64,000 bases of DNA from Haliclona indistincta. Its lineage: Eukaryota; Porifera; Demospongiae; Haplosclerida; Chalinidae. Position numbers and translations under genes: made by a program. The notes beneath the pieces are model-generated. The model searched no databases, was not told the origin of the DNA, and worked only from the letters and a program-made list of their open reading frames with translations. This document shows, in pieces, positions 40,664-63,770 of the stretch. Numbering within the stretch: the first letter of the stretch is position 1; every line of letters begins with the position of its first letter. The stretch spans positions 12,767,823 to 12,831,822 of the forward strand of contig OZ024789.1 of assembly GCA_964017065.1 (NCBI GenBank), written 5' to 3'.

Positions 40664-41738
40664 TCTCTGAGATAGCATCAACAGAACAGATGAAAGCATG
40701 TTTGTGCAATGGTGTTTGCAATTTGTACTCACTTTGAGCTGTTTGTAACTTGACACCCACAGACCAACTAGTGCTATATGCACCTAGATAATGATTACAT
40801 GACCAACTGCAGCGTGTTGAGGCTCCAAAGCCCATTGATGAAGATGATGAAAATGCCTTCTTTTCACTAGAGCTACTGAAACAATTACAGCAAGTTCCAC
40901 CTCCTCCAGTCCCTCCAGTAGCTCCTCCAGGACCTGGTTCATCGTCGTCGTCTTCATCATGACGTCTAGAGTAATTGTTCCAACCATTCCAGTATGCTTC
41001 TTCATCATCTTCATCAGTCTGGTCATTTTCATCTGAACCGCTTGTTATCAATTTTATTACTCGCTGAGTTTTCCATGTCACGTTTAAAAATAGCATCGCT
41101 TGCACTTTTATATGCTTCCAATAATTTGTCTCGGAGTTCAGTACTAGGAGCATGCTCTAGTAGATAGTTCAACACTTTCTTTGTGTCCCAAACTTTAACA
41201 TCAATCCATGTTGAATGAGGGCTCTGATATGCTTAAAACCATCAGACGATTTTGGATGTTGATGGACCCAGCAGATGCATGGTCTCGGATGACAAACATT
41301 CATCCGTTCAAAAATTTTGTCAGCACAGCAGTCACATGGTGAGAAGCTTATTACAATACTATGTACATCATGATTTTGTGATGAAATCTTACGAACAACT
41401 TTATTCTCAGCATGTGCTTTATGCCCTTTACCACTACTGAAGGACACATGCTTGATACTGTCATCAGAACACTCTCCAAATGAAGCTGTTAGCCTAGGAA
41501 AATATTGCTGATGGATGGGATGCCGTTTATCGTGCTTTCTTATTTGCCAGTCATTGGTATTGCTAGCCAGAACATTAAGTATTTCTCCTTAGATCAGAAA
41601 TCTTCCATTACCATCTGTCAGTATGGTTCCTGTAAGAAAAAGCACTCACTAACTTATTCCATTCTTTGATTTTAAGTTGATTACAACCAACAACAGACGA
41701 ACACTCAGTACAAGATAGACTAGTTTCACAACTGGCAT
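40664..41738 (-). pseudogene. AID/APOBEC-like deaminase, locus A (decayed)
   Basis: ATG at 41738 opens a signal-peptide-like start (MPVVKLVYLVL). The deaminase core follows with an intact HAE (41406-41414) and SPCDCCADK, then ICWVHQHPKSS and a C-terminal helix, an acidic stretch, a Gly-rich GPGGATGGTGGGG segment and a Cys/Ser cluster. It is broken by two offsetting shifts near 41650, an in-frame TAG at about 41590, a one-base deletion at about 41205 and another near 41070. The exons for the cytoplasmic tail are missing because the segmental duplication ends at 40664. It is the sister of locus C. Confidence 0.75.
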
Positions 41739-41880
41739 ACTAAAATCAGCTGTTATTATACCACTTTTTAATTCAGCACTTTCTAGTGAACTGTTTTCAG
41801 AGAATAAGCTACTGAAGCTGTATGTAACACTTGCAACTGTCAGCTAATACTGATGAACTACACTGTACTGGTATCACTGA

Positions 41881-41907
41881 GGGAAATACCCTCAAAGTGA
41901 CTCAGCA
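41881..41907. promoter_or_regulatory. Composite GGGAAATACCC / TGACTCAGCA element, locus A
   Basis: A kappaB-like palindromic GGG-N5-CCC site and a CNC/Maf-type TGACTCAGCA site six bases apart, about 145-170 bp upstream of the ATG. The same block stands upstream of loci B and C at similar distance. Binding factors are inferred from the motif only. Confidence 0.5.
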
Positions 41908-42218
41908 AACATGGTCAATTACTTTCATATAGTACTTCAATGATATTCATCACATTCTTAAAATAAATGAATATTAATGACTTACAGGAAGCAATATTTG
42001 CTAACCTTACTCTTGGAAAGCTGGAAAATCATATAACCACATTTAGACATACTCGTGCAGCCTTATGTACAATGTTATCATACTGGCTATGTAACATGAC
42101 TCTTAGTTATATAACCTCAGTCTTGTGTTTGTCTCCTGATCGCATGGGCAGATTCCATTCATCCAGCCCTCAGGTTACGCCGTATTTCTATCAAAGCATA
42201 TCTCATAGTACACCCGTT

Positions 42219-42356
42219 TTACACACTCAAGCTATTCAATGAAATCAGAAAACTAGTAGTGCCTCCCCTGTACTCGGAGTGGGTTGGGTTGAGCTGATTA
42301 GAGTGGTTGTTCAGATCCGCCCTGTCTCCAGTGCCGCTGTATCCACGATCAGACAT
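42219..42356 (-). pseudogene. Truncated copy of the Asn-rich repeat peptide gene
   Basis: Starts like the gene at 60816-61010 (MSDRGYSGTGDRADL) through the first repeat, then at 42255 jumps into unrelated sequence and stops after 46 residues. About 250 bp, including the second repeat and the normal stop, was deleted relative to the right-hand copy. Confidence 0.7.
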
Positions 42357-42438
42357 AGCTGAGAAAACAGTGAATTAGTCTACAGAGAAGAAGAATTTCT
42401 CAAAACAGCAGAATGAGCGTTTATGCTTACTCACTCTG

Positions 42439-42446
42439 CTTTTATA
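42439..42446 (-). promoter_or_regulatory. TATA box of the truncated peptide gene
   Basis: TATAAAAG followed by CAGAGTGAGTAA, the same as upstream of the two related genes (56422-56429 and 61093-61100), about 85 bp before the ATG. Confidence 0.55.
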
Positions 42447-42449
42447 TCG

Positions 42450-43154
42450 TGGTTTAAAATGGGCATGGAGATCATACCCTTAGATTCTATAATGATATTC
42501 ATCACTGTCTGTATCACAGGAAGTAATGAATATGAATGAGCTATAGGAAGTAATAATCCTAGGAAGACTAGCAACTGACTGTACATACATGATACAACAG
42601 CCAACCACATCAATACTATATCCAGCAAATAACAGATTGTGAAAACCATTATCATAATGTGTTAATTTTTTAGTTTTATATAGCAATATCATTAGTCAGT
42701 TTTCTGTTGCAAGCTCCTTTGTAGATCAGTTAATGGAATTAACTTGTTTTGACATTGCTGCACTGCTTATTAACTGTTGGTTAACAGTTTGACTAATAAT
42801 GGCCAAATGTTTATTGCACAATGTCAGATGGGCATGTACAAGAGTTTCCCTGCATGGAAGAGTCATAATTATAGAATAAAGTGGTGACGTGTTCAGTACT
42901 AATAATAGTAACACAACTATGAATGTGTTGGAATGTGCATGTATTCATTGAATGTAACAGACATCAAGCAATCTTGTGTTGACACAAACCAAACATCTCA
43001 GTTTTGAATTTATAATACGTCAACATAGTTAATGATTGTCACACTGCAGACTTTCCATCCAAGTATCTATATTGCTACAGTTTGTTTCTTAGCATACATA
43101 ATTAGCATAAAATTAATTTAATCAGCTGTGCTCAGACTAAGGACTGTTATTTGT
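42450..43154. other. Intergenic spacer, duplicated at 61105-61800
   Basis: No gene seen. A short hydrophobic minus-strand frame is present in both copies but differs by indels, so I do not call it. Confidence 0.5.
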
Positions 43155-43630
43155 ACCATAGGAAGCCATATTTTCAAAGGCACCACCATGCAGTGGTGTA
43201 TTTCAGATATACCACGGAAAGTCACATGATTTCCTGTGGAATAACTAGATATTCCATGGTTTATCATGTGATTTCCTGTGGTATATCTTGATATTCCACG
43301 GGAAGTCACATGACTCCCACTGGGCAAAAAAGATCATAGAAATGATCTACCTTCCAGAGAGAAAAATAGGAAGGGGTGAGAGTTGCGAGTCAACCTCACC
43401 AGTAAACTATAAAGGGTGCGCAAGTCGCCCTTATTTATCCTATAGAAACCTACAGACATCAGTGGGCCTTGTGGTTGCCATGGTACAAGTCAGTTATACC
43501 ATGCCTACCTGTGGTGTATCACTCAGCAATAACCATTAATCCCTCGGGCTACGCCCTCGGGATTAATAGTTATTGCTTCGTGTATTCGTGATACACCACG
43601 GGTAGGCATGGTATAACATATTATACGATT
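43155..43630. mobile_element. Foldback insertion absent from the right-hand duplicate
   Basis: The right copy reads across near 61800. Within it, 43490-43620 is a palindrome with GTTATACCATGCCTACC arms and a CCCTCGGGCTACGCCCTCGGG-type turn, and 43195-43310 holds repeated inverted ATATTCCACGGGAAGTCACATG-like units. It is a non-autonomous palindromic element resembling those at 20084 and 27588. Confidence 0.75.
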
Positions 43631-43671
43631 AGCTAACATTTAAAATATAAAAAGCGCAGCTCTGTATCAAA

Positions 43672-45074
43672 TCAATATTGAGCTATATCAATCATTCCTG
43701 GACATTTTTGAGGTTCTTCCTCTGATACACTTCTATGGTGCCTCCTTTGTCTTCATCACTGTCACTATCATTGTGTTTAATCTTTTTCAAGGCTGGTTCA
43801 TCATTGTCTTTCTCTTCCTTATCTCATTGCCCATTTTGCTTCTGTGGATATAAAGATCTAATTAGTCGATTTGTATCCCAGTCACGTTGATCAAGTGCAT
43901 GTTTTATTTTAACATTTTCATATGCTTGCAATACTTGAGTTCATCGTGTAGTTCTTGACCAATCGAATCTGTTGTTTAGCTTGCTGCAACATTTAATTAA
44001 TCATTAATTCCCAGTATCCAAGCTTTATAAAATGAAGTCATGTCCAATTAAGTATCGAATAGACCGTGCCGTCAAGAGTTCTTCTGGATATTTATGAACC
44101 CAAAAGAAGCGGATCACAGGTTTAGGTGCTTTTAGTTCATCATACCTTTTCACAATCTTTGCAGCACAATTCTTCTCTTCTCTCCTCTCCTTGTTTATGA
44201 TGCTCCTCTTCTTCTCTTCTGTCCTCTCCTTGCTTATGCTGCTCCTCTTCTTCCCTTCTCTCCTCTCCTTGCTTATGATGCTCCTCTTCTTCTCTTCTCT
44301 CCTCTCCTTGCTTATGCTGCTCCTCTTCTTCCCTTCTCTCCTTGCTTATGATGCTCCTCTTCTTCTCTTCTCTCCTCTCCTTGCTTATGATGCTCCTCTT
44401 CTTCTCTTCTCCTCTTCTTGCTTATGATGCTCCTCTTCTTCTCTTCTCTTCTTGCTTATGATGCTCCTCTTCTTCTCTTCTCTCCTCTCCTTGCTTATGA
44501 TGCTCCTATTCTTCTCTTCTCTCCTCTCCTTGCTTATGATGCTCCTCTTCTTCTCTTCTCTCCTCTCCTTGCTTATGATGCTCCTCTTCTCCTCTTCTTG
44601 CTTATGATGCTCCTCTTCTTCTCTTCTCTTCTTGCTTATGATGCTCCTCTTCTTCTCTTCTCTTCTCTTCTTGCTTAATGATGCTCCTCTTCTTCTCTTC
44701 TCTTCTTGCTTATGATGCTCTTCATAGCAAGGAGAGCCCAATGATGCGCACTGATAGCAGATCTTCGTTTGGCATGTCCAAAAGTTGCTCTTCTGCATGC
44801 TCCGCACCACGTCTAGAGAAAAATCACTTTCTTAATGTTGTAAATATCATCCTTTTCGTCTTCAATTTGGAACAAAGCTGTCACACATGTGAAATATTTA
44901 TAACCAGGATTTGATAACTCCTTAGGATAGTACTAGTTGTGCTTTGATTCTATAGGATCTCTCTGATTATAGTCCTTGAACTAGAAGTCCTCCATTCCCA
45001 TCTGAGAGTTCAACTCCAGTGAACACAGCACAGACCAATTTCTTCCATTCAACTTGAATATGGTATGCCTCCAT
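43672..45074 (-). pseudogene. AID/APOBEC-like deaminase, locus E' with a large repeat in the zinc loop
   Basis: ATG at 45074 begins without a signal peptide and gives VEWKKLVCAVFTGVELSDGN, the family N-terminus. HAEEQLLDMP follows, then SPCYEEHHK. Between the two zinc cysteines lies about 540 bp of Glu/Lys/Arg repeat (44180-44720), after which NCAAKIVKRYDE and FFWVHKYP resume. A 10-base deletion just before SPC and shifts at both repeat edges break the frame. The last part is an acidic tail (SDSDEDKGG). Sister of the locus at 61856-62765. Confidence 0.65.
44180..44720. repeat. Charged coding minisatellite, locus E'
   Basis: About fourteen units of 33-39 bp built on CTTGCTTATGATGCTCCTCT plus a CTTCTCTTCTC run; on the minus strand they read EEHHKQEEKRREE or other frames. 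It begins at the codons after PCYE and ends just before the second zinc Cys. Confidence 0.9.
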
Positions 45075-45079
45075 AACAG

Positions 45080-45890
45080 AAAGGACAACAGTCTATGCTT
45101 GCAATATGTCTCGAAATCTAACAAGAATTATAGTATTTATAGGCACTAAAGAACTAAGTGTGTGTCCGTTATACATCCACTAAAGTGAATCAGCAAATAT
45201 GTAGGTAGATGATTTTTGTTTACTTCCATAACAGGACATTCATGACATAATAATTAATTGATTTTGGTATCAACATTACTCATTAAATTGTTCTAATCAT
45301 TAATTTTATCATATCCTAGCTACCTTGTGTATGTGTGACCTAAGAATTGAGCAGCGTATGTTATCAACAATATATCATTGTTTGCATATTGACGCTACGT
45401 ACCAACAACAATTATTACCAAAGCTCAATTTTCACTGAGTATTGCTCTGCTCTTCATATCATAGCTACTCCATTTTTCGGCTCATTCCCAAAATATTTAT
45501 CTTTTTATTTCACTTCTTGTCCGGTTCCTGCTTATAAATCATTTACACATATACCTTATCTTGGATTTCTGCATGATTATCTTCTTTGTTTTCAAATTTC
45601 AATATCTATAATTTATCAGTCTAGCTGCATTTTATTAAAGACCATCAGATGATTCCTTCTAAAACTAATTCATATCATCAGTTCTGTTCTGTTTCAGTTC
45701 ATTACATGTATTAAATGAATAACTTTTTAACCCAAAGTCACTAGCTTACCTTTTGAATAGAGTGTGTTCATGTATATATAGCTACATGTAAGAAGCCTTT
45801 TTCTTTCCGAGCTTCCTTGAATAAGTTTACACTTAGTTGTCTACAGTGCCACTCCTGTTGCTGATCTTCAGACACTGCAGTATAAACTGT
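45080..45890. other. AT-rich spacer
   Basis: Nothing coding that I can support; largely repeated at 62770-63525. Confidence 0.5.
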
Positions 45891-45894
45891 GTCA

Positions 45895-46130
45895 TTGTGA
45901 AGGTCACCAACTTCATTGGGAAAACTTTACTTGATCCTGTTCTTGGACTGTCTGATTCAAAAGTATGCATGTGATGCTTCTTTGTTATAATCGACACTAC
46001 AGCTTTCAACTTAGTAAAGAAGAATGGGAGAAATTAGTCTCTCCTACGGAAATGGGGGACTGCTTGTTCAAGGAGATATGCAAGCTTGGAAGAAAATCAT
46101 CGCAATCCTGAATATTTAAGTATATCAGAC
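45895..46130 (+). pseudogene. Plus-strand deaminase N-terminal fragment
   Basis: A short exon-like VTNFIGKTLLDP followed by GTATG, then EEWEKLVS and, after a shift, GNGGLLVQGDMQAWKKI. These match the family's EW-KLV...GNG-LIQGEI start. No catalytic motif follows in frame. Its duplicate is at 63530-63770. Orientation is opposite to all other members. Confidence 0.45.
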
Positions 46131-46906
46131 TTTGCATAATTATGAGCATGTGGTTGATTTGTTTGGGCTGGCAGTCGATCAACTGTTCAATTGTCCTTTT
46201 GATTCGCTCATGCATGCAGTTCATATTAGGTACTCTACTGTATACAGACTCAAACTCTTTTTGAAGTGGTGATGACTGTTTGGTTAGGTTGCTTATGTAT
46301 TCATTTGCAAAACAATTTACATGGCACTTTCAGTATCCGCATTGGAGAGACTTCTGAGCGTGTTGCACTATACAATGTTTAGCTAGTTACATATGAACGA
46401 TATAAAACTGTTGAGTCATAACCAACAATATTTCTACTCTACTAACACTAACATATTTATACTCTACTAACACTAAAATACTTATACTCTATAACTACTA
46501 ACATGTTTTATAATGCACATGTACAATTTTGTACATACTGCACTAGTCTACATAGACACTTATGACTTTCTAATCTTCAGTTGAGGAACTGCCTGCTGAC
46601 TCTTCCTTATCTTCATCATTTTCATTTCTGCATGTATTAATAACTTTTGTCAACTGCGTCAAATTAACCAGCTTACCTTTCATCTGTTGTTTGTTCATCT
46701 GTTGGTTGAGGTCGTTTTAGATGTGCTCTTCTCTGAACATCATCTAGTACTTCTTTCCGAGCTTTTTTCCGAGCATCTTCAATGAGCTTATGAGTTTCCT
46801 CGTCACGCTTAGAGAGAGCAACTCTGGTTTTTTCATATGCTTGCTGTAGTTCATGTTTTAGCCTTTCATTAGGAGCTTGTTCCAGCAAGTATTCATACAT
46901 ATTTCT

Positions 46907-47065
46907 GAATATTTTGAAAGACACGGTCTTTAAAATTGGTTAATGACAAAGGGCGGGGACAGCTTGCGCGCGCATGCCACGTGGTGAGACATGCTGCCCA
47001 GTTTCCACACCATTCTAAGCTGTCCAGTCGCTCGCCCAGCAAGAAACCGAAGGGTAACTTATCAC
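46907..47065 (+). repeat. Split direct repeat A1
   Basis: 159 bp starting GAATATTTTGAAAGACACGG; appears identical to A2 at 52217-52375. Confidence 0.9.
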
Positions 47066-47099
47066 TGTTTCTTACACGTCCAGCATGGTGGTAGCTGTG

Positions 47100-50000
47100 T
47101 CTACTGCCGTGTTCACCGACGGTTTCCTGTTCTCTTTTCTCTGCTGCACGCTGCCCGCGCCTCCTGAGTCCTCTGTCTACAGTCCACTGTCTGTGGGCAC
47201 GTGACTCGTCGGAGTTATGTGCTCTACTGCTGTTCAGCACGGTTTCGTTCCAAGTTCTCCTGGGAACCTCGTGTCTCTGCCGTCAACGTCGTCGTGCTGC
47301 GTGGTTTCCGATTCTGAGTGAGCGGGGAGACTCTAGTGCTGAGCTGGTATGTGCATGTCCGTAGTTCTCTAGGCTGAGCTGTTCAGTGGTGTCTGGTTGG
47401 CTGGATTTATAGCGTATATATTATTGGTGCATGTGGTCTCATGTGGAGTGACAGTGTTCTGAGCACGGTTGTGTTTGAGTCGTCAGTATATGTAGTGATA
47501 CACTGGTTGGTGCGTCTTCTGTTGGTTTGGTTGTGGACTGTTGGTCCATCCTGTTGTGTCCGGACATGTGTTGCTGCGTGTTTGCTGTCCAGTGCATAGT
47601 ATACACTCAGTTTGCTGTATTGTACCGAATTCGTTTGTAACTTTAATTTTATCTGGTGATAGGACTTGTACGTATTATGGGTTATTGCGAATATGATCAC
47701 ATTATTGTAGGCGGTTGTTGTGTGGATTGTTCTAATCCGTATTTGCATCATGCTGTTGTGTACGTATTAGTGCGGTGCTGTATGGTGATGCTCCATATTT
47801 TATGTGGTTGTGCAGAGGTTTTATTACTTGGAAGATTTGAGTATTCACTGTTACCTTGCAGTCTCTAATGTGTCAATTCACTGGTATTTGTTCACACAAT
47901 GGAGCATGATCAAAGACTTAATGGAATTTTGTTTACGGTCTACACTCTATACGGTTTATGCTTTACCCTTGTCCCTTGCAAGAGGTAATAGAACCTACTG
48001 TAGCCTGTATTTGGGTGCAATTGACAGATTGTCTTTATGTGCAGTGTTGTTAGCTGCACCTCAACTGGCATACCTACTGGGCTCTGTTGTTTGATGCTTG
48101 TAGTTTAGGCTTTGCCTGTGTGGCATTGTCATCTTAGGTTTATTTTCTTATCTATGGCTTTCTTACAGGGATTTGCAGTGCCTCATTTATTGATGCTGTT
48201 GGTGTGCGTGGTTTCAGCATGTGTTGATTGCGTATAACTTTGAGTATGGTTTGCTTAGATAATGTTGCGTAATGTTGCCTCTTTGAGTATGGGATTCAGC
48301 CTATGCTGTTACCAACCTGCCTGTAGTGTGGCATGGCATCTTCTGTCTACATATGAATCTATTTCCCTTTTTTATATATGGTTGTTAGTTTCTATGGTTG
48401 GTTTTGACGGGTGACCCACCCTTCGACATCCTGTGGCATCTGTTGCTGATCTCATCACTTGTTTTTGTTCTGGAGTGGTGCTCTAGTTATTGTAAATTAA
48501 TTTTTCCACTTCTTGGTTCCCTGATCATTGGTTTTGATTGCATATAGGTATGCTTTAGTGGCTTTGTGCTATAGAATAAGCTTTGTTTGCATGGTTGTAT
48601 GGCTGTGTGGACATTAGTGACTTTGTACCTTGTTTGCTGAATGCATGGCTGTGCAGTTGTTGGGTTTCTTATACAGCATGTGTTGTACTAGTATTAATGG
48701 TAAGCATTGTCTGGTAATGTTGTTGCAGTATGCATTCTTTGCTGGCTGCTTGCAGGTGTAGTCTCCAGTGAGGTATATGACGTTTGCTTGTTGCACTATA
48801 TGCACAGTTATGTTTTATGGTCGGTACATTTTACACATCTCCCATATGCAGTAGGTTGTTCCTTCTCTATGCTTGTCTGTGCTGTATGCAGTATTTGGAC
48901 AGTGCAGTATGTTTTCTTTTGCATACCTTATGTGTAATTGCTGATTTCTCGTCTGTATATTGTGCTTTGCTCGGCTGCTTCTTGTTCTCAATGCTTAAGT
49001 ATGCAGTGTGTCAGTGGTATCTGTTCCTTGCTTCCTTAGTGGTGTGGTATTTGATTGCTGTTTTTTTTTAGTATTATTCTCTGCATTTTGCTTATAATTA
49101 TCATACCCGGTAGACATTGTTTACTTTACCTTCATTAAGTCTCATTGTGTCGTCGTTTGCACGTTGCATTTTGTCGTTTGCTCATTGTTATTCTCTGTCA
49201 GTTTGCTGTATTATGCTGTTTCTTGTTGGTACTGTAAATATCATTACACTCATCAGTACGTGTGCCTTGCCTGCTGAGCAATATGTTAATTTCCTCGCCT
49301 TTGCTAGCACAATGCTGTACGCTTTGCTTGCTAGGCTATGTTGTTTCCTCTCTTCATCGCTAGCACAATGCTATATATAGGCTGCCTGCAGAGGTATGTC
49401 GTTTCCTCTCTACGTTGCTATCTCAATGCTGTATGGGTTACCTGCTGGACTATGTTGTTTCCTGTCTATATGGCTAGCTCAATATTGTATGCATGGGTTA
49501 CTCGCTGGGCCTTGTTGTTCCCTCTCTACATTGCTTGCACAATGTTGCACGGGTTACCTGCTGGACTTTGTTGTTTCCCCTCTGTATTGTTAAAACTATG
49601 CAACATGCTATAATTATGCTTTAGTGTGCTGTAGTTGTTGCTATTTATTGTCCATGCGTCAATTGCTTACGCTGTGCCGTACATACTGTGCTCTGATTTG
49701 CTCTATAATATTGTATCCATTGAACATTGCTTGTGCTGGGCAGTATGTGTTGCACCGTACTTGTTTCGTGCCTATACGCTAGTCATTCCTTTCTCTGTGC
49801 AGTATATGTTGTACTATATGGTTTCTTGTCTATATATTATGCCTTGCTTGTGCGTTGCAGTATGTTCTGCACTGTACTTCATTCCTGTTAAGCATTGCTT
49901 GCACTGTGCAGAATGTGCTGTACTAGGTGGTTTCCCGTTTTGTTGCTCTACATGAGTATTCTTTCGTGTCTATGCGGTATGCGCTCGCTGCCGCTGTGCT

Positions 50001-51520: not shown

Positions 51521-51689
51521 ATGTGTCTTATTTGTGGCATAGCGTAAATGAGAGAATATAGATAGCGACAATTTTATTTTTGCAGGGGTAAATAAGATTA
51601 ATAGAGGGAACTAGAATTTATAAGTACTATAAAATGTAGTTACTTTGTATAGTTTCTAGGATTGGGAGTGTATAGTGCTACGCACTATT

Positions 51690-52215
51690 GGAGGGGCCTA
51701 CCTTGCTGGTAGGCCCATACACTCCCCAGGTGTGCAACCCGGCGGGTTGCTGGTAGTTCATTCATTCCTGTACGTGGTTACAGATGGCAGACGGCCGGGG
51801 CCCTCCAAGGGGGTAGCACTCTGAAGTGTTGTAAGCCTTGTAGTGTTATAAGCCTTATAGTAGTGGACACGAGTTGTACACATGCGCCATGTGCTGGCAG
51901 GCAGGTCCATGGTGGGCACCATGCAGGTGTGTACACATACGCCATGTGCTGGCAGGCAGGTCCATGGTGGGCACCATGCAGGTGTGTACACGTACGCCAT
52001 GTGCTGGCAGGCAGGTCCATGGTGGGCACCATGCAGGTGTCTGTTAAAATACCCTCTCAGGTTGGGGGAGGGCCCCTGCCGTCAAAGTAGCAGAATGCAT
52101 TGTTATTGTTAAGCAAAATCCGGGGGAGTGGCCCAGGCGGTTCATTTCCAGACCATCCTCCTTCCTCATAGAGGTGTCAGAGGAATATTAAGAAAGTATA
52201 GCCTTTTGGCATTAA
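51690..52215 (+). repeat. Split direct repeat B1
   Basis: 526 bp, from GGAGGGGCCTACC to GGCATTAA, repeated at 52616-53141. It contains three copies of a 55-bp unit with CATGTGCTGGCAGGCAGGTC. Confidence 0.9.
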
Positions 52216-52216
52216 T

Positions 52217-52375: not shown

Positions 52376-52615
52376 CCCACCCTCCACTCCCTTGGAAACA
52401 TAAAGGTAACATAAGTAAGTTGCATGGTATTTACAGTGTATTGTGCATGATTCATTATATATTCCAACCACTTACGCTCTTACGAGTGTGACGAACGCTG
52501 GGCCAGCCATTCAGTTGGCAAGCTCCCCCGAGGCTGTATTATATTGTATGTGTTGGCTGTATTATATTGTATTTTTGGCTGTATGCACTAATGCTACCTT
52601 GCTGGTACGCATATG

Positions 52616-53141
52616 GGAGGGGCCTACCTTGCTGGTAGGCCCATACACTCCCCAGGTGTGCAACCCGGCGGGTTGCTGGTAGTTCATTCATTCCTGTACG
52701 TGGTTACAGATGGCAGACGGCCGGGGCCCTCCAAGGGGGTAGCACTCTGAAGTGTTGTAAGCCTTGTAGTGTTATAAGCCTTATAGTAGTGGACACGAGT
52801 TGTACACATGCGCCATGTGCTGGCAGGCAGGTCCATGGTGGGCACCATGCAGGTGTGTACACATACGCCATGTGCTGGCAGGCAGGTCCATGGTGGGCAC
52901 CATGCAGGTGTGTACACGTACGCCATGTGCTGGCAGGCAGGTCCATGGTGGGCACCATGCAGGTGTCTGTTAAAATACCCTCTCAGGTTGGGGGAGGGCC
53001 CCTGCCGTCAAAGTAGCAGAATGCATTGTTATTGTTAAGCAAAATCCGGGGGAGTGGCCCAGGCGGTTCATTTCCAGACCATCCTCCTTCCTCATAGAGG
53101 TGTCAGAGGAATATTAAGAAAGTATAGCCTTTTGGCATTAA
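52616..53141 (+). repeat. Split direct repeat B2
   Basis: Repeat of B1, ending GGCATTAA directly against the deaminase codons at 53142. Confidence 0.9.
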
Positions 53142-53719
53142 CGTATCCCAAACTGTCAAGTCAAAGCCATTTTCAATGAGCTCCTTGACACCGATCGTAC
53201 CATCTTGCATGTTGACTGACTTGTAATTGTAAACCCGACTGAAGTGTATCACCGGTTTACGAATATGTTCTCCTTCGCGATTGTATCTTGCTACAATATC
53301 ACATCTTTCTGTACAAGGTGAGTAGTTTAACCCAATACTGTGTACTAATCGTAGCTGTTCTGTGTCCTTCATTATAAGTTGCTGCTCTACATGACCAGTC
53401 CTTTATATATGTATCAGAATCAAGCACTAGCACTTTCTTCATCTTTCTTTCACTTTGTAATCTTGGGGAATGATTTCACCTTGGTCATTCTTTTGATACA
53501 TATCCCTTTGTGATTTTAAATTTTCAGGAGTTTTGTACTTTGTTTTCAAGATATCCCATATCTCTCCTTTAATAAGCAGTCCTCCATCCTCTTCAGAGTC
53601 TGAGAGTACAGCTCCAGTGAACATACCACCGACTAAATTCTCCCATTGTTCTCTTTCAAGTAGAGGTGTTGCCATTGAGACACTTCGACACACGAGACTA
53701 AGCTTCAACAGAAACTGAT

Positions 53720-54212
53720 GTGCTGTAGCTATTATAGCTATTTACTTATAAAGCACTTACACTAATACTTGTAAGGACAAGTGCTTGCTTTTATAAGCTA
53801 TGGCAGCTATATCACATGCAATGACTCTGCATCAAATGTTTTTCATTAACTTCTCATAGCAGTATATTCATAACATAATTATTAATTTTAGCATTATTTT
53901 GAATATGTTCATAATAATTATTAGCTGTGTCGTGAGATCATTACTCATAAAGATGTTCTAAAAATACATTACAACTAAGTTTTTACAAAAATTAATTATC
54001 ATGATTAACTGTATGTTCGACTGTTTTCGTATTTTTCATGAAAGTATGATCACAATCATAAAAAAGTATGATCATGATCATAAAAAAAATAATAATTCTT
54101 ACATCACAGCAGAAATGATTGTATAACTGATTGATTATTCACACTGCAAACTTCAACGAGCGTAGTTTTGTACTTGTAATAAATTGTTTTTCAACTCTTA
54201 TGCCGTTGCTTG
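53720..54212. other. Spacer between deaminase loci D and B
   Basis: AT-rich. ATCACATGCAATGACTCTGC at 53812-53831 resembles the sequence at 58209-58228 and may be a promoter element of locus D. Otherwise nothing is seen. Confidence 0.45.
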
Positions 54213-55527
54213 TCAGTTGAATCTTCCTTCATTTTTCTTCCTGGAAGCAATAATTATTAACTCAGTCGTACACAATATCAATTCACTTACTTCATCTTGG
54301 ATTTATGTAAGATACTGTTGGTTGTTACAACTGCTTTATAATCTTCACATGTTTGCCTAATAGTCAATCTTAATGTCCCTCTCTTCTTCATTATTTCAGG
54401 CACTTGAAAACTCTTTCCCTAATGTGTATAATTATATGAAAAATGACAGAATAAAGCATTTTTGTGCGTTGGTGCCTGCAATTGGTACTCACTTCGAAAT
54501 ATTTATAACTGGACTCCCACTGATCAAATACATGTAGTAAAATTCCAAATAGCACTACAACTGCTAGAATATGATTGAAAGGCAGACTGCAGCACATCGA
54601 GGCTCGGCTAGAACCCTTGAATGAAGATGCTGATGCCTTCTTATCACTTGAGCTGCTGTAGCAACTATAGCATGCCCCACCTCCTCCAGTCCCTCCAGTA
54701 GCTCCTCCAATCCCTCCAGTAGCTCCTCCAGGACCTGATCCATCATCATCGTCTTCATCATGGTGTCTTGAATGATTTCCCCAGCCACACCAATATGCAT
54801 CTTCCTCTTCATCAGTTTGATTTTTATGATTTGGCTCACTTATATACTGAATCAATCAATTCCTGAGTCTTGTTTTCACGTTCAAAAGAGTGTCATGTGT
54901 GCTATAGTATGCTTCCAGCAGTTCTTCTTTCAGTTCATAGCTAGGAGAATGCTGTAGTAAGTAAAGCAATAGTTGCTCTGTTTCCCAAACTTTTACGGTG
55001 AATCCTTGCCGAATGAGATGTTTGATATAATGAAGACTAATGTTTGATCTTGGATATTCATGGACCCAGCAGATGTATATTATGGGACTTGTAGAATAAC
55101 TGCAAATATCAATAATTGTAACCGCACAATCGTAACATGGTGAGAAGCTTGTCACAATGTTGTGCACATCATGATGATCTTTCAATAGAATATTGCGGAT
55201 AATCTTTTTCTCAGCATGCGAATCAGAACCACTAAAAGACGCATGCTTGATACTATGGTCACAAGAAGATTCGACATACGATGCTGTTAGACTAGGAAAG
55301 TATCGATATGTAGGATCTTGTTGAATGTGCTTCTCCATTAGCCAATCACTGCTGTGATTAGCTAGAATTTCTAATATCTCTCCTTGAATCAGAAACTCTC
55401 CATTGCTGTCTGACAATATTGCTCCAGTGAAGAAGGCACTCACTAGGTTTTTCCACTCTCTTTCTTCAAGTTGATGAGCAGGTATGGCAACCAGCAAAAG
55501 AACCACTGCACAACAGGCTATTTTCAT
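54213..55527 (-). CDS. Secreted or membrane AID/APOBEC-like cytidine deaminase, locus B
   Basis: The best-preserved family member. The ATG at 55527 gives a signal peptide (MKIACCAVVLLLVAIPAHQ). The deaminase domain has HAE (55210-55218), 23 residues, then SFSPCYDCAV, and after it IIYICWVHEYP and IRQGFTVKVWET, matching the strand-helix-strand order of AID/APOBEC enzymes, which use zinc to deaminate cytosine. The frame stays open for 223 codons (to about 54856). Beyond it, in shifted frames, lie an acidic and Gly-rich stalk, a CYSCYSSSS cluster, a membrane segment (HILAVVVLFGILLHVF), a donor at 54492 and two basic tail exons (54300-54410 and about 54213-54245). So it is either a secreted 223-residue enzyme or a type I membrane protein with two indels. 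An extracellular or luminal site is inferred from the leader. Confidence 0.8.
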
Positions 55528-55654
55528 ACTTTTGATAGTTCATGCAGCCAGCTGTTATTATATCAATCAAACCGCAAGTGAACTGTTTTCAGAGAAGAAA
55601 GCTACTGCACCCAACTATATCAGCTAATACTATTGAATGTACTGGTATCACTGA

Positions 55655-55681: not shown

Positions 55682-56122
55682 AACATGGTCAATTATTTTC
55701 GTAATGATATTCATTATTCTTATTAAAACGAATGAATAATAATAAGCTACCAGTAGCAAGAATTACTCATGCACTAGGCTATTCTTGGAGACAAATTTCG
55801 TTGTCTACCTTATAGTATTTTACTGTAGATACCCATTATGCTATCATCCTTGCATAGTCAACCTGAAGTGTTTGCTTATCTCAAATCACAAGGAAGATTC
55901 CATCCATTCCAGCTGCCTGTCAGCCTTGCTATCAAATCTGTTATCCCATGACACACCCCTATTTTCTACACTCCTAAACTCAACTTTTTAAGTGAAACTT
56001 TTAGCAGCAACCAAGCATACACAAACAGCAAGCTAGTCTACAACACACTACGTACAAGTCTACAACAGTACAGCTTCAGCTATCAGGTATAGGCTGTCCA
56101 AGTGTCATCACTGTATGAACAA

Positions 56123-56338
56123 TTACTTCTTTGAGCCGCCTCCAAACTCGGGGTTATTTGGATTTAGCTGGTTAGCGTGGTTGTCCCGATCAGCTTTTGT
56201 CCCATCACCACCATAGCTAGCAGAGCCGCCTCCAAACTCGGGATTATTTGGATTTAGCTGGTTAGCCCGGTTATCCCTAGAAGCTTTTGCCTCAGCACCT
56301 TGTGCCCCAGCACCTTGGTATCCTTTTTGATCAGACAT
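56123..56338 (-). CDS. Small Asn-rich repeat peptide, 71 aa
   Basis: Begins MSDQKGYQGAG and carries two copies of a motif D(R)DNxANQLNPNNPEFGGG (residues about 21-39 and 50-68), ending SKK. No signal peptide or membrane segment. Hydrophilic, Gly/Asn-rich and probably disordered. I do not know its function. A related gene lies at 60816-61010, and a truncated one at 42219-42356; all are next to deaminase loci and share a TATA-box promoter. Conservation of the repeat core while flanking DNA diverges supports a real gene. Confidence 0.72.
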   Translation of the reverse strand: MSDQKGYQGAGAQGAEAKASRDNRANQLNPNNPEFGGGSASYGGDGTKADRDNHANQLNPNNPEFGGGSKK

Positions 56339-56421
56339 TGCTGTGAGGATCAGAATTTCAGTCAACTTGTAATCAAAATTCTCAAAGAATACAGAACGAG
56401 CAGTTATGTTTACTCACTCTG

Positions 56422-56429
56422 CTTTTATA
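56422..56429 (-). promoter_or_regulatory. TATA box of the Asn-rich peptide gene
   Basis: TATAAAAG followed by CAGAGTGAGTAAACAT, conserved at the other two copies, about 85-90 bp upstream of the ATG. Confidence 0.6.
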
Positions 56430-56439
56430 TGGTTGCCGA

Positions 56440-57050
56440 GAAGCATGGATGGTGTGACTCTATAATGATAGTTATTCATCACTGTGGGTATCACAGGAAG
56501 TATTCAATATGCAGGAAGTAACTTAATCCAACTTCCATAATAGTATTCATGGCAGAGAAATTGACACTTCATGGCTATTATGACTGCAGGTGCATAGCCA
56601 GGCCCACCCCAATAATACTGTAATCTACAAAAACTTATTAATATTGGGTAAACCTTTAGCTGTTTCAGTGATACTGTAGTTCCAGTAAAACTTCGGTGTA
56701 GACTAGAGATATACTCAGGTCAAAATTAATGGATACAATTATCAATCTTTGAATTCTATAGTACCAATTGACCACTTATTCAGACTATTTTCAATGCCGC
56801 TCATCCAGTAGTGTCCCCGGGAGAGTCCGTCATTAGCTAAAATTCTAGGTGACGTTCATTACTATTTGTAGTAACATAACAGTGACATCATAATGAATAT
56901 AATAGTGTTGGAATGATTATGTGCAGTATAGTAAATTGATCCTTTTGAAAATAATTGTTGCCTTAAACATCTCAGTGCTGACAAAGTATTTCAAAATTTC
57001 AAGAACAATTTCAGTAATTCAAATGATTTATTTAAAATGATGTACAAAAG
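56440..57050. other. AT-rich spacer
   Basis: No gene or repeat that I can support. Confidence 0.5.
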
Positions 57051-57059
57051 GTATTTAAA

Positions 57060-58060
57060 TTGTCATACTGCAGACTTTTCCATCCAAGTATCCATTGATA
57101 CAGAAGCATTTTTCCTTCCTCTTCTTCTTCCCTTCTGGTGTCTCTCTTTCTGTGCTATATCTGATTTTCTGTCATCACTCTGTGATTCAAGTGGATGCCT
57201 TCTTCTCGATCTCTTTCTTTTCTTACTCATTTTCTATATACGTAAAATGAAAATAGCATGTAATCATAATTCTGCTATTAAATAGTACATGTATACACAC
57301 CTCTTGCTCTTGACTTTGTTCTTGTTGTCCAGTATTGGTTACTTTAGAATGTGTACCTTGTCTTGGTTGTGATTTTCTCATCTTTCGTCCTATTCTTTTC
57401 AGATGTTATGAACTGTGATTAATTCTTGAGTTTTCATTTCACGTTCAATCAAGGCTTTAGCAGTTTGTATAATTGTGTTTCGGACTCGTAACCACAACTA
57501 TTAGCTGCTTTCATAGAACTGAGCAACTGCCAAGTGTTAGCTACTAGTATAACACACCTCGAATACAACAGGTGGTATGTACTGATGTTTCAGGGAAAGA
57601 CCCAATGACTCAGCACCTATCATTTCTAAGTACTGTAATAGTATTCTTTGAACCATCAAAGTGATGAATATTAATTAGTAGTACAGGAATGATCTCTAGC
57701 ACTCCGTAGTCTGCAGCTGTGGCAACTGCAGTTGATCTAATGGAATATTGTTAACCACTTTCTCTTCAGCATGTGATCCATTGCTGCTTTAAATTCTCGG
57801 TTTTGATTATCTATTCACTCATGGTGGTCCTTCACTATAGCGCAACACACTTGTATACAAAGCAGGCTAAATTTTAACATAGAACACGGTGAAATCTTTG
57901 CCCATTGCCCGAGTCCCTCTATGGCTTGCTCTAGCAGGATCATAAGTCCTGCAGTTGCTGACTATCCTGCATACCATATCACTGCTAGTTTCTTCCATCC
58001 TTCTTTGGTAAGTTTATCACTGGTTGGTATAGCAAGGCTCATTTCAGAACAGAATCAAGT
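57060..58060 (-). pseudogene. Degraded deaminase remnants, locus F (possibly two)
   Basis: The upper part (about 57700-58030) shows EGWKKLAVIWYAG and GSHAEEKVVNN (HAE at 57765-57773) among stops. The lower part (57060-57500) shows the C-terminal helix (AKALIEREMKTQELI) and a basic exon that reads MSKKRKRSRRRH. A promoter-like composite element at 57593 lies between them, suggesting that two genes are compressed here. No complete domain remains. Confidence 0.5.
57593..57615. promoter_or_regulatory. Composite GGGAAAGACCC / TGACTCAGCA element, locus F
   Basis: Same two motifs as loci A-C but with a two-base spacer. It stands upstream of the remnant at 57060-57500. Confidence 0.45.
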
Positions 58061-58218
58061 ACTCTCTTTCCAATGTTGGCAGTTGGAGAACGCCAAGTAG
58101 CTATTCTACTAATAATAAAAGTACTTACGTACAGCACTTGAGAACTAAGTGTCAACCTAGTATAATACTATAACATATACTCAGTGAGCGTATCCTATAG
58201 CAACTGTATCACATGCAA

Positions 58219-58228
58219 TGACTCAGCA
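58219..58228. promoter_or_regulatory. TGACTCAGCA element upstream of locus F
   Basis: Lone bZIP-type site within ATCACATGCAATGACTCAGC, shared with 53812 except for one base. No GGG-N5-CCC partner. Confidence 0.35.
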
Positions 58229-58592
58229 AAGTGGAGGTGTGTTAATGTTTTGCTAATGGAGGTCTATTCCCATAACAGTGCATTCATGACATTGCTATCA
58301 TTCATTGATTGTGGTACAGTAAATCAATTACTATTTCATAAGATCGGATACTCATTTACAAGTGCTATAAAAATATACCTCTAATACACTTGCTAGCTGC
58401 TTGCTTTCTGCTTGCTGCTGAGTGGTTGATTGTTTAACATAGTAACATAAACAACAAACAACAACATTTCACATAAACAATAATGATCAACAACAACAGT
58501 CACAATAACGATCACGGATGGTTGGATACACACTGCAAACTTCTAATTAGCTAACATTAATAACTTTGTTGTTAATTCTTATAGGCTGTGTA

Positions 58593-60152
58593 CTATGTAT
58601 GTTGCTTGTTGGTCATTTCCTGTTCTCTTAATTCTTGCTTGTTTCCTAAAATATAGAACTGTCATACATGTACAGTAAATAGAACATCTTTTTACTAGTT
58701 ACCTTTCTGTATGATGCTGTTGGTCTGCTCTATTGATCGAGAAGCTTCACATTTTTGCAACCTGGCAAAATTCTTAGTAGTTTCAGGTTCTTTAAAACCA
58801 TCTTCGAATTTCTAATGTGCATGTAATGAGATAGCAACAACAGATGAAAGCATGTTTGTGTAATAGTATTTGCAATTTATACTCACTTTGAGCGGGTTGT
58901 AACTTGACACCAACAGACCAACTAGTGCTAATACACCTGCTAGATAATGATTACAAGACCAACTGCAGCGTGCATGTTGAGGCTCCAAAGACCATTGATG
59001 AAGACGATGAAAATGCCTTCTTTCCACTAGAGCTACTGAAACAATTACAGCATGTTCCACCTCCTCCAGTCCCTCCAGTAGCTCCTCCAGGACCTGGTTC
59101 ATTATCATCGTCTTCATCATGACGTCTAGAGTAATTATTCCAACCATACCAGTATGCTTCTTCATCATCTTCATCAGTCTGGTCATTTTCATCTGAACCG
59201 TTTTTTATTACTCGCTGAGTCTCCATGTCACGTTTAAAAATAGCATCGCTTGCATTTTCATATGCTTCCAATAGTTTGTCTCGGAGTTCAGTACTAGGAG
59301 CATGCTCTAGTAGATAGTTCAGCACTAGGAGCATGCTCTAGTAGATAGTTCAGTACTAGGAGCATGCTCTAGTAGATAGTTCAGCACTAGGAGCATGCTC
59401 TAGTAGATAGTTCAGCACTAGGAGCATGCTCTAGTAGATAGTTCAGTACTAGGAGCATGCTCTAGTAGATAGTTCAGTACTAGGAGCATGCTCTAGTAGA
59501 TAGTTCAGTACTAGGAGCATGCTCTAGTAGATAGTTCAGTACTAGGAGCATGCTCTAGTAGATAGTTCAAAACTTTCTTTGTGTCCCAAACTTTAACATC
59601 AAATCCATGTCGAATGAGGGCTCTGATGTGCTGAAAACCATCAGACGATTTTGGATGTTGATGGACCCAGCAGATGCATATTACTATTGGTCTCGGATGA
59701 CAAACATTCAACCGTTCAAAAATTTTGTCAGCACAGCAGTCACATGGTGAGAAGCTTATTACAATACTATGTACATCATGATTATCTGATGAAATCTTAC
59801 GAACAACTTTATTCTCAGCATTTGATTTATGCCCTTTACCACTACTGAAGGACACATGCTTGATACTGCCATCAGAACACTCTCCAAATGAAGCTGTTAG
59901 CCTAGGAAAATATTGCCGATGGATGGGATGTCGTTTATCATGCTTTCTTATTTGCCAGTCATTGGTATTGCTAGCCAGAACATTATGTATTTCTCCTTGG
60001 ATCAGAAATCTTCCATTACCATCTGTCAGTATGGTTCCTGTAAGAAAAAGCACTCACTAGCTTATTCCATTCTTTGGTTTTAAGTTGATAACAACCAACA
60101 ACAGACGAACACTCAACAGCAGTACAAGATAGACTAGTTTCACAACTGGCAT
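58593..60152 (-). pseudogene. AID/APOBEC-like deaminase, locus C (zinc His lost, minisatellite-broken)
   Basis: Sister of locus A. The ATG at 60152 gives a hydrophobic leader (MPVVKLVYLVLLLSVRLLLVV), then two offsetting one-base shifts near 60060-60090 that are shared with locus A. The deaminase domain is otherwise open, but the HAE is NAE (59814-59822), losing a zinc ligand; SPCDCCADK is intact. At 59287-59567 the codons for YLLEHAPSTEL are multiplied in a 31-bp repeat that causes a stop. Downstream are an acidic/Gly/Cys-rich stalk, a membrane segment (HYLAGVLALVGLLVSSY), donor GTGAGT at about 58888, a tail exon (about 58702-58812) and a last exon ending at 58593. It gives the clearest view of the full family architecture. 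Confidence 0.78.
59287..59567. repeat. 31-bp minisatellite inside deaminase locus C
   Basis: About nine extra copies of a 31-bp unit with GGAGCATGCTCTAGTAGATA. As 31 is not a multiple of three, successive copies are read in different frames. Locus A has a single copy, so the expansion is recent. Confidence 0.95.
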
Positions 60153-60284
60153 ACTAAAATCAGCTGTTACTATTATACCACTTTTTAATTCAGCACTTTC
60201 TAGTGAACTGTTTTCTGAGAATAAGTTACTGCAGCTGTAGGTAACACTTAATACTGATGAACTATTCTGTACTGGTACCACTGA

Positions 60285-60311
60285 GGGAAATACCCTCATA
60301 GTGACTCAGCA
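60285..60311. promoter_or_regulatory. Composite GGGAAATACCC / TGACTCAGCA element, locus C
   Basis: Same as locus A except one base in the spacer; about 133-160 bp upstream of the ATG. Confidence 0.5.
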
Positions 60312-60815
60312 AACAGGTCAATTACTTTCATATAGTACTTCAATGATATTCATCACATTCTTAAAATAAATGAATATTAATGACTTACAGGAAGCAATAT
60401 TTGCTAAGCTTACTCTTGGAAAGCTGGAAAATCATATAACCACATTTAGACATACTCATGCAGCCCCTTATGTACAATGTTGTCATACTGGCTATGTAAC
60501 ATGACTCTTAGTCAACCTCATAGTCTCGTGTTTGTCTCCTGATCGCATGGGCAGATTCCATTCATCCAGCCCTCAGGTTACGCCTGCCGTACTTCTATCA
60601 AAGCATATCCCATGGCACACCCGTTTTACACACTCAAGCTTTTCAATGAAATCAGAAAACTTTATCAGCATCTATGCAAGTACAATGAAGCTAGTCAGTC
60701 TACAACAATAGGTACACACAGCAGCAATCTAAACTACATCTATACTATATGCAGCAGCATATGAGCTTATGATGATCCAGTATAGTCCAGTCCAGTTAGT
60801 GTCCATCAAACCAGG

Positions 60816-61010
60816 TCATTTCTTTCCACCGGAAGACCTGGAGTTATTCGGGTTCATCTGGTTGGAGTGGTTGTTCAGGTCAGCTCTTGTTCCAGCCCCA
60901 GTGTAGCTAGTAGTGCCTCCCCTGTACTCGGAGTGGGTTGGGTTGAGCTGATTAGAGTGGTTGTTCAGATCCGCCCTGTCTCCAGTGCCGCTGTATCCAC
61001 GATCAGACAT
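60816..61010 (-). CDS. Small Asn-rich repeat peptide, 64 aa
   Basis: MSDRGYSGTGD, then two repeats of the form RADLNNHSNQLNP (residues about 12-24 and 42-54), ending SSGGKK. Paralog of the gene at 56123-56338, with the same start, repeat core and Lys-Lys end. Function unknown. Confidence 0.7.
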   Translation of the reverse strand: MSDRGYSGTGDRADLNNHSNQLNPTHSEYRGGTTSYTGAGTRADLNNHSNQMNPNNSRSSGGKK

Positions 61011-61092
61011 AGCTGAGAAAACAGTGAATTAGTCTACAGAGAAGAAGAATTTCTCAAAACTGCAGAATGAGCGTTTATGCTTACTCACTCTG

Positions 61093-61100
61093 CTTTTATA
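61093..61100 (-). promoter_or_regulatory. TATA box of the Asn-rich peptide gene
   Basis: TATAAAAGCAGAGTGAGTAA, as at 42439 and 56422. Confidence 0.6.
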
Positions 61101-61855
61101 TCGTGGTTTAAAATGGGCATGGAGATCATACCCTTAGATTCTATAATGATATTCATCACTGTCTGTATCACAGGAAGTAATGAATATGAATGAGCTATAG
61201 GAAGTATTAATCCTAGGAAGACTAGCAACTGACTGTACATACATGATACAACAGCCAACCACATCAATACTATATCCAGATTGTCAAAACCATTATCATC
61301 ATGTGTTAATTTTTTAGTTTTATTGAGAGTGACAATATCATTAGTTTTCTGTTGCAAGCTCCTTTGTAGATCAGTTAATGGAATTAACTTGTTTTGACAT
61401 TGCTGCACTGCTTATTAACTGCTGGTTAACAGTTTGACTAATAATGGCCAAATGTTTATTGCACAATGTCAGATGCGCATGTACAAGAGTTTCCCTGGAA
61501 GAGTCATAATTATAGAATAAAGTGGTGACGTGTTCAGTATACTAATAATAGTAACACAACTATGAATGTGTTGGAATGTGCATATTCATTGAATGTAACA
61601 GACATCAACCAATCTTGCGTTGACACAAACCAAACAACTCAGTTTTGAATTTATAATACGTCAACATAGTTAATGATTGTCACACTGCGACAGACTTTCA
61701 ATCCAAGTATCCGCTATATTATTGCTACAGTTTGTTTCTTAGCGTACATAATTAGCATAAAATTAATTTAATCAGCTGTGCTCAGACTAAGGACTGTAAA
61801 TATTGTTATGTATAGCTAAAAATTTTAAATATAAAAAGCGCAGCTCTGTATCAAA

Positions 61856-62765
61856 TCAATATTGAGCTATATCAATCTTTCCTGGACACTTTTGAGGTTC
61901 TTCCTCCGATACACTTTCTGCAGTGCCTCCTTTGTCTTCATCACTGTCACTATCATCGTGTTCAAGGCTGGTTCATCATCGTCTTTCTCTTCCTTATCTC
62001 ATTGCCCATTTTGCTTCTGTGGATATAAAGATCTAATTAGTCGATTTGTATCCCAGTCACATTGATCAAATGCACGTTTTATTTTAACATTTTCATATGC
62101 TTGCAATAGTTCATCGTGTAGTTCTTGACCAATTGAATCAGTTGTTTAGCTTGCTGCAACATTTAATTAATCATTAATTTCCAGTATCCAAGCTGAAGTC
62201 ATGTCCAATAACTCCAAGTAAGTGCTGAATAGACCGTGCCAAGCGGTCTTCTGGATATTTATGAACCCAAAAGAAGTGGATCACATGCAGGTTTAGGTGC
62301 TTTTTGTTCATCATACTTTTTCACAATCTTGTATACTTTTTCACAATCTTGGCTGCACAATTCTTCTCTTCTCTCCTCTCCTTGCTTATGATGCTCCTCT
62401 TCTTCTCTTCTCTCCTCTCCTTGCTTACGATGCTCCTCTTCTTCTCTTCTCTTCTTGCTTATGATGCTTCTCTTCTTCTCTTCTCTTCTCTTCTCTTCTT
62501 GCTTATGATGCTCTTCATAGCAAGGAGAGTAGTTTAGCCCAATGATACGCACTGATAGCAGATCTTCTTTTGGAAATTGGCATGTCCAAAAGTTGTTCTT
62601 CTGCATGCTCCACACCACGTCTATAGAGAAAATCACTTTCTTAATGTTGTAAATATCATAGTCCTTGAACTATAGATATCCTCCATTCCCATCTGAGAGT
62701 TCAACTCCAGTGAACACAGCACAGACCAATTTCTTCCATTCAACTTGAATATAGTGCGCCTCCAT
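61856..62765 (-). pseudogene. AID/APOBEC-like deaminase, locus E with a charged repeat in the zinc loop
   Basis: The ATG at 62765 opens the family start without a signal peptide (VEWKKLVCAVFTGVELSDGN), then a TAG at about 62670. HAEEQLLDMP (62599-62607) is in one frame, and GLNYSPCYEEHHKQ in another, because of a 7-base insertion relative to locus E'. About 160 bp of Glu/Lys/Arg repeat separates PCYE from the second zinc Cys, which is followed by a 20-bp tandem duplication, then IHFFWVHKYPEDRLARSIQHL, the C-terminal helix and an acidic tail ending DIAQY. It is not functional as written. Confidence 0.65.
62358..62515. repeat. Charged coding minisatellite, locus E
   Basis: Four to five units of the kind expanded at 44180-44720, in the same position between the zinc cysteines. 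Confidence 0.85.
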
Positions 62766-63529
62766 AACAGAAAGGACAACAGTCTATGCTTGCAATGCTT
62801 CAAAATCTAACAAGAGCTGTAGTGTTTACTTCCGTAACAGGACATTCATGAAATAATATTTAGTACTATTCATTGATTTTGGTATAGAATTCAACATTAC
62901 TCATTAAATTGTTCTAAAAATAAATAATCATTAATTTTATCGTATCCTAGCTACCTTGCGTATGTGTGACCTAAGAATTGAGCAGCGTATGTTATCAACA
63001 ATATATTCAATTATCACCATGATTATCGTTGTTTGCATATTGACGCTACGTACCAACAATATTATCAAAGCTCAATTTTCACTGAATATTGCTCTGCTCT
63101 TCATAATATCATAGCTACTCCATTTTCAGCTTATTCCCAAAATATTTATCTTTTTATTTCACTTCTTGTCCGGTTTAGTTCCTGCTTATAAATCATCTAC
63201 ACATATACCTTATCTTGGATTTCTGCATGATTATCTTCTTGGTTTTCAAATTTTAATATCTATAATTTATCAGTCTAGCTGCATTTTATTAAAGACCATC
63301 AGATGATTCCTTCTAAAAGTAATTCATATCATCAGTTCTGTTCTGTTTCAGTTCATTACATGTATTAAATGAATAACTTTTTAACCCAAAGTCACTAGCT
63401 TACCTTTTGAATAGAGTGTGTTCATGTACATGTAAGAAGCCTTTTTCTTTCCGAGCTTCCTTGAATAAGTTTACTACAGTTTCACTCCTGTTGCTGATCT
63501 TTAGACACTGCAGTATAAACTGTGTCATT

Positions 63530-63770
63530 ATGGAGGTCACCAACTTCATTGGGAAAACTTTACTTGATCCTGACCTTGGACTGTCTGATTCAAAAGTATG
63601 TGATGCTTCTTTGTTATAATCGACACCACAGCTTTCAACTAAGTAAAGAAGAATGGGAGAAATTAGTCTCTCCTACGGAAATGGGGGAATGCTAGCTTGT
63701 TCAAGGAGATATGCAAGCTTGGAAGAAAATCATCGCAATCCTGAATATTTAAGTATATTAGACTTTGCAT
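63530..63770 (+). pseudogene. Plus-strand deaminase N-terminal fragment, right copy
   Basis: Starts MEVTNFIGKTLLDPDLGLSDSK followed by a GTATGT donor, then EEWEKLVS and LVQGDMQAWKKI in different frames, as at 45895-46130. The window ends before any catalytic motif. Confidence 0.45.

Follow-up and report, generated by a model that had tools for sequence, protein, structure and literature searches.

Predicted surface-anchored, intracellular and fused members of an expanded AID/APOBEC-type deaminase family in the sponge Haliclona indistincta

We investigated deaminase-like genes in a 64,000-nucleotide stretch of the genome of the sponge Haliclona indistincta (C7:12,767,823-12,831,822, hereafter the window; the genome comprises 144 Mb in 46 contigs). 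A sequence-only reading, made without database searches, had proposed a tandem cluster of AID/APOBEC-like deaminase genes there. AID/APOBEC enzymes are the basis of vertebrate antibody diversification and antiviral restriction. We found that the window copies share ancestry with a family of nearly 50 loci, many of which are broken. This is probably an expanded AID/APOBEC-type family in which one class of proteins (class M) is exported and membrane-anchored, a second (class C) is intracellular, and two genes fuse the two classes. The sequence-only reading did not include the putative signal peptide and anchor, nor the non-secreted class or the predicted fusions.

The sole window copy with an open deaminase frame is of class M1 and lies at 54859-55527 on the minus strand (223 amino acids; 227 residues from stop to stop, 54856-55539). 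It carries H104-A-E106 (55210..55218, minus strand), the predicted zinc-binding His and catalytic Glu, then 23 residues and P130-C131-x2-C134, in which C131 and C134 of SPCYDC (55126..55137, minus strand) are predicted zinc ligands from sequence and alignment. This is the order H[AV]E, spacer, SPCxxC that had been read from the translations, and HxE with PCxxC is deaminase chemistry according to PMC11004436. Among 15 aligned members, the Glu, the SPC and the second Cys were present in all 15 and the His in 14; the exception, L024 (C7:11.81 Mb), is an open class C gene with Leu for the zinc His and is perhaps catalytically dead. All ten aligned class M proteins retain both HxE and SPCxxC.

In a Pfam scan of five window fragments, four matched; SNAD4 was the best model for three of them and AID for one. 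Where the general dCMP deaminase model matched at all, it scored lower, narrowly so in 41169-41588 (22.2 vs 21.1 bits), and the window protein gave 0.0016 with PF00383 vs 4.8e-5 with SNAD4 (PF18750; precomputed as PF18750.9 for this protein). Within the H. indistincta genome, nine of the ten SNAD4 matches passed the cut-off, and the same model matched two of 14 control genomes, under the cut-off. For the AID model (PF18767), 12 of the 19 own-genome matches reached the curated cut-off alone, none of the 14 control genomes had a match, and all five class C proteins tested (L018, L019, L020, L023 and L030, the last of class C2) passed the cut-off. Model PF18782 had no match in the own genome or the controls. 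A family profile compared with sequences of the Protein Data Bank (PDB) found APOBEC3G at 3.6e-11 and the first cytidine deaminase at 0.0044; the window protein alone had no match in a PDB sequence search. In fold comparison of an AlphaFold2 model, all of the matches listed (50 per list) were AID/APOBEC. Assignment of the predicted domain to the AID/APOBEC branch is thus supported by Pfam, the PDB profile search, the AlphaFold2 model and fold comparison, which agrees with the earlier preference for this branch over CDA or ADAR. The clade, previously given as inferred, can be named SNAD4-like. Because SNAD4, the nearest named group, has already been reported, and only from sponges, the family is already known; the literature gives it a predicted secretion signal. 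The term "SNAD4" in PMC13402138 stands for gene numbers and not for this family, and was set aside.

The family extends far beyond the window. The window protein had 46 own-genome matches at E <= 1e-3, and deaminase searches with the proteins P0010 and P0011 had 69 (tails included) and 37, respectively. Since those 46 matches are joined by the 12 of 19 AID-model matches over the cut-off alone, with none in 14 controls, the window matches are not due to chance. Merging the matches to the window protein and to the P0010 and P0011 deaminases with part of the tblastn matches gave 47 loci, of which 44 were on C7, two on C20 and one on C3 (merge distance, 420 bases, which joined some neighbours; weakest locus, E 8e-4; matches to linker or tail alone excluded). 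Two extra C7 places near 9.38 Mb, from other queries, bring the total to 49, 46 of them on C7; this count excludes two C1 places that match a linker repeat of the protein P0025 and not the deaminase. In the window, tblastn with 16 family proteins (E <= 1e-3) found matches on the minus strand only, which merged into nine segments. These correspond to eight copies, a minisatellite having divided a single copy at 43860-45089. The claim of at least eight loci of one ancestry therefore stands for eight related copies, but the plus-strand scraps counted with them were not seen at this threshold. Stops, frame changes, truncation or minisatellites have disrupted seven of the eight, and with 49 places genome-wide the expansion and heavy pseudogenisation suspected earlier are evident.

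Translation of 30 loci and alignment of 16 proteins distinguished the two architectures. Class M frames consist, in order, of a hydrophobic start, the deaminase, an acidic run, a Gly-rich and Ser-rich linker and a hydrophobic segment, and stop soon past a Lys/Glu codon because they presumably read into an intron. A GTGAGT donor follows this codon in 15 of 17 class M loci examined, and 14 of these have a family acceptor 50-76 bases past the donor; the next exon is a short basic tail, except in L026 and L027, where it leads into class C, and in L007. N-terminal hydropathy (19 residues) was 1.85-2.55 in ten class M proteins and at most 0.99 in six class C proteins; a SNAD4-like signal peptide is thus suggested, by hydropathy only, for class M and is not seen in class C. 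Hydropathy of the C-terminal segment was 1.50-3.01 in L002, L006, L014, L026 and L027, and most of the six class C proteins measured end in a basic tail. L002, L006, L007, L014, L026 and L027 keep an open frame through start, core and anchor. In the tree, class M (13 rows) and class C (10 rows) were split at 100/99, with a warning from the tool about long branches, and the M4 ectodomains were strongly diverged (branch 1.21). P0010, which is probably from another species and has 50% identity to its best-scoring match in this genome, combines a class M-like linker, start and tail with a class C-like core and falls in the class C clade; the architecture was therefore lost or exchanged in one lineage. 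Class M is likely a surface-anchored enzyme, its signal peptide, linker, membrane segment and splice sites being predicted from hydropathy and sequence.

Class M and class C loci are often neighbours. A class C start lies 753-827 bases downstream on the same strand in seven of 20 class M loci and at 63 bases in an eighth, the broken L005; for the remaining class M loci, about 1-1.5 kb downstream was covered. L018, L019, L023, L024 and L030 are separate genes, as each has its own ATG a few codons behind an in-frame stop. Fusion of every class M-class C neighbour pair is thereby ruled out, and only L026-L020 and L027-L021 are left. In L020 and L021, no Met precedes the domain core, the frame opens immediately after an acceptor, and just upstream lies a class M exon. 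Splicing in silico gave two products open in phase 0, one of 621 residues with a single 64-base intron and one of 640 residues with introns of 50 and 58 bases and a duplicated small linker exon. The two pairs, at C7:11,107,414-11,109,340 and C7:11,155,596-11,157,590 (11.107 and 11.155 Mb), are likely one gene each, with a predicted deaminase on both sides of the membrane. A phase-2 splice from class M exon 2 to the window class C copy was also considered and was dropped after inspection of the sequence. As a separate observation, dS was 0.004 between the upstream halves L026 and L027 vs 0.075 between the downstream halves L020 and L021, a difference that gene conversion could give.

Five proteins matched in a search with the 621-residue fusion: P0022, which is the L027 exon; P0023, with 77% identity across the class M part; P0024 (46%); P0025, with 59% identity across the class C part; and P0010. 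The longest contig listed is 90,647 bases for P0024 and P0025 alike, and P0025 has a repeated linker with EDSEVSKPT, resembling EDHEVSKQSQ of L020. We infer from P0024 and P0025 that a relative probably has the same M-C pairing.

Selection was estimated by Nei-Gojobori counts on frames that run some codons past the predicted donor. In four diverged class M pairs (L014/L015, L002/L006, L002/L014 and L006/L014), dN/dS was 0.34-0.42 over the whole frame, 0.17-0.34 in the core and 0.46-0.58 in the linker-anchor and tail part (dS 0.7-1.2 in three pairs). Close pairs were noisier (tail dN/dS 0.57 to 1.61), and class C pairs ranged from 0.43 (L020/L021) to 1.03 (L018/L019).

Several observations weigh against this interpretation. 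Regarding identity, the window protein scored 23.9 with SNAD4, for which the cut-off is 27; Foldseek TM-scores by query length were low (0.34-0.47) among the matches listed; L013 and P0024 matched no Pfam family at the limits used; the M4 ectodomain of L026 had a weak Pfam match (21.4 bits at best); and the three-Cys C-terminal cluster of SNAD1 was not found in the window protein, which has no Cys past residue 153 of 223. Regarding architecture, an in-frame ATG is missing from the start of L003, L004 and L015; there is no donor in L012 or L013; L016 has the donor and no family acceptor; L007 is in a different frame past its family acceptor and has a weak membrane segment (1.15), while that of L006 is short (1.50); and the class C protein L019 has a hydrophobic C-terminal stretch of its own (1.53). 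Tail dN/dS was high in close pairs (1.35 and 1.61), and that of the whole L026/L027 frame was 3.04, from one synonymous and ten non-synonymous changes. None of the five proteins found with the 621-residue fusion spans both domains, a weak negative given that the search covered the 7,997 best word-sharing candidates and that the listed proteins look unspliced. Finally, P0024 has lost the zinc His (DAE) and reads SSC for SPC, and its ectodomain may consequently be inactive.

The alternative that survives best, although we consider it unlikely, is that these are plain SNAD4 proteins, that is, soluble secreted deaminases, and that the linker, the hydrophobic segment and the downstream class C are non-coding or separate genes. 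It agrees with the description of SNAD4 as a sponge family with a predicted secretion signal, with the separate start codons of the five class C genes above, which make most M-C neighbours distinct, and with the window copy itself, which ends ahead of the linker. However, the linker and hydrophobic segment are open and alike across M1, M2, M3 and M4, a linker of the same type recurs in P0010 (50% identical to its best-scoring match here), and the tail dN/dS of 0.46-0.58 at dS 0.7-1.2 in three pairs also argues for a translated anchor.

It is improbable that the ectodomain is a decoy or receptor that kept the fold and lost the chemistry, and that the effector is instead the basic tail or the inner deaminase. 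The altered zinc sites of P0024 and of the class C gene L024 and the long branch of the M4 ectodomains would fit such a role, but the ten intact class M rows and a whole-frame dN/dS below 0.45 in the four diverged pairs would not. We give equally little credence to a family in decay, whose tandem duplicates arose in a burst and now serve little purpose: the state of the window copies (seven broken, the eighth without its tail), the 31- and 39-base minisatellites inside three of them and the dN/dS of 1.03 for L018/L019 point that way, whereas the open start-core-anchor frames elsewhere and the low core dN/dS of the diverged pairs point to maintenance. A free-cytidine (CDA) or bacterial-toxin deaminase was rejected on its weaker models and seems highly improbable, for although 41169-41588 also matches the dCMP deaminase (0.0003) and two toxin deaminase models (0.0029 and 0.012), SNAD4 or AID is best in all four matching fragments and AID/APOBEC leads the PDB profile and fold lists.

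In the preferred reading, an expanded family of anchored, intracellular and fused deaminases, class M would be exported and membrane-anchored. A flexible acidic/Gly/Ser stalk would keep its deaminase on the outer side, where exposed single-stranded DNA or RNA of viruses or microbes would be the likely substrate for cytosine deamination. Class C, with no signal peptide, would deaminate inside the cell, as classical APOBECs do, and the M4 fusions would act on both sides. More tentatively, at somewhat less than even confidence, we propose that some animals thereby have a membrane-spanning mutator, one protein whose outer and inner deaminases are joined by the acidic/Gly/Ser linker and a membrane helix. 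Beside arrays of surface-anchored and cytoplasmic single-domain enzymes, it could edit foreign nucleic acid first on the outside of the cell and a second time once this has entered. Knowledge of the family, by itself, would suggest that the activity is cytosine deamination and the target an immune one.

Compared with known systems, the family shares with SNAD4 the deaminase core, the motif, and the signal-peptide-like start of class M, and nine of ten own-genome matches to the SNAD4 model pass its cut-off. It differs in the linker, membrane segment, cytoplasmic exon, signal-less class C and two predicted fusions, a comparison that does not extend to the founding description of 2018. SNAD1 of fish is described as likewise having a signal peptide, an AID/APOBEC-like domain, many genes and a link to immunity; its domain is also said to end in a three-Cys cluster, and six of the proteins to have an N-terminal anchor, whereas the predicted anchor here is C-terminal, behind the linker. 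APOBEC3G is among the nearest solved sequences and folds, and the M4 fusions resemble it and other two-domain APOBEC3 proteins in having two AID/APOBEC domains per chain. APOBEC3G has both of its domains in the cytoplasm, next to each other; here, they would be separated by a membrane segment. Class C resembles AID in its PF18767 matches, but there is no sign here of a link to antigen-receptor genes, and the basic tails are of another kind. The literature searched, which did not cover the 2018 founding paper, contained no account of a sponge deaminase that is anchored in the membrane or acts on both sides of it, and we do not claim absence from print. As far as our searches reach, the predicted anchoring, the class without a signal peptide and the putative fusion across the membrane are new. 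Little biochemistry is known of the secreted, early-branching AID/APOBEC branch. An array with surface-anchored, cytoplasmic and both-in-one proteins would make the first site of action (outside, surface or inside) testable in one animal and would show how secreted and intracellular enzyme lineages relate.

All eight window copies lie on the minus strand. In the copy with the open deaminase frame (54472-55527), the window protein has a signal-peptide-like start (residues 1 to about 21; N-terminal hydropathy 1.96), and its frame stops before the linker and anchor. What is left of the acidic/Gly/Ser linker and of the hydrophobic segment (the latter at about 54517-54573) follows at 54493..54855, in a frame other than that of the deaminase; this part is in-frame and open in paralogues such as L002. 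Next come a predicted 74-base intron (54419..54492, GTGAGT...CATTAG), at a position common to paralogues, and a predicted last exon with a 43-residue basic cytoplasmic tail and stop (54287..54418). Since the frame is lost before the anchor, 54859-55527 would be either a soluble secreted form or else a recent pseudogene or dying gene; its dN/dS of 0.45 vs L002 and 0.69 vs L003 is compatible with a live or a dead gene.

Further deaminase-like frames lie at 59511-60053, 41169-41588, 53103-53402 and 53439-53741. Two other copies are of class M2: 40685-41741, with three stops, and 58827-60161, with stops and a 31-base minisatellite of 9.2 units inside it (59285-59569). This minisatellite shifts the frame with each unit, and a similar repeat, partly in frame, occurs in L010 (C7:12.11 Mb). 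The remaining five copies are of class C. The copy at 53103-53741 has no signal peptide, scored 30 bits with the AID model (cut-off 27.3) and is broken between frames 53439-53741 and 53103-53402; its 3' end is cut and overlapped by the second copy of a direct 540-base duplication (51676-52215 and 52603-53141; 99.4% identity). The remnant at 57411-58042 consists of a stub (57917-58042) that encodes the first 44 residues and lies 784 bases downstream of 58827-60161, the M2 copy, and a 25-residue C-terminal piece (57411-57485), a short match outside the merged segment list that was counted with the adjoining stub. The fragment at 46594-46903 has the C-terminal helices and tail only. The copy at 43860-45089 is split by a 39-base minisatellite (44170-44703, 14.4 units), and the remnant at 62433-62840 contains the same one (62361-62513, 3.9 units), in both cases separating the SPC from what comes next in the domain.

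Elsewhere in the family, L037 (887-2350; C7:9.37 Mb) and L038 (111-803) hold more distant AID/APOBEC-like frames with no evident signal peptide, the former with a long N-terminal QQAIDYQQ-type repeat. The deaminases P0014 and P0016 have a long RSVEEHQ-type repeat between the HxE helix and the SPC, an expandable loop in the domain. A Peptidase_C1 (cathepsin-like) gene read from the C10 cluster has the active-site Cys, the position at which silicatein has Ser. In the window, a minisatellite at 38630-39165 is open on both strands (PGTPGILSTWDLTPL-type repeat), and a single 2-kb block (30001-32000) has an extreme GC skew of 0.669, with an AT skew of 0.435.

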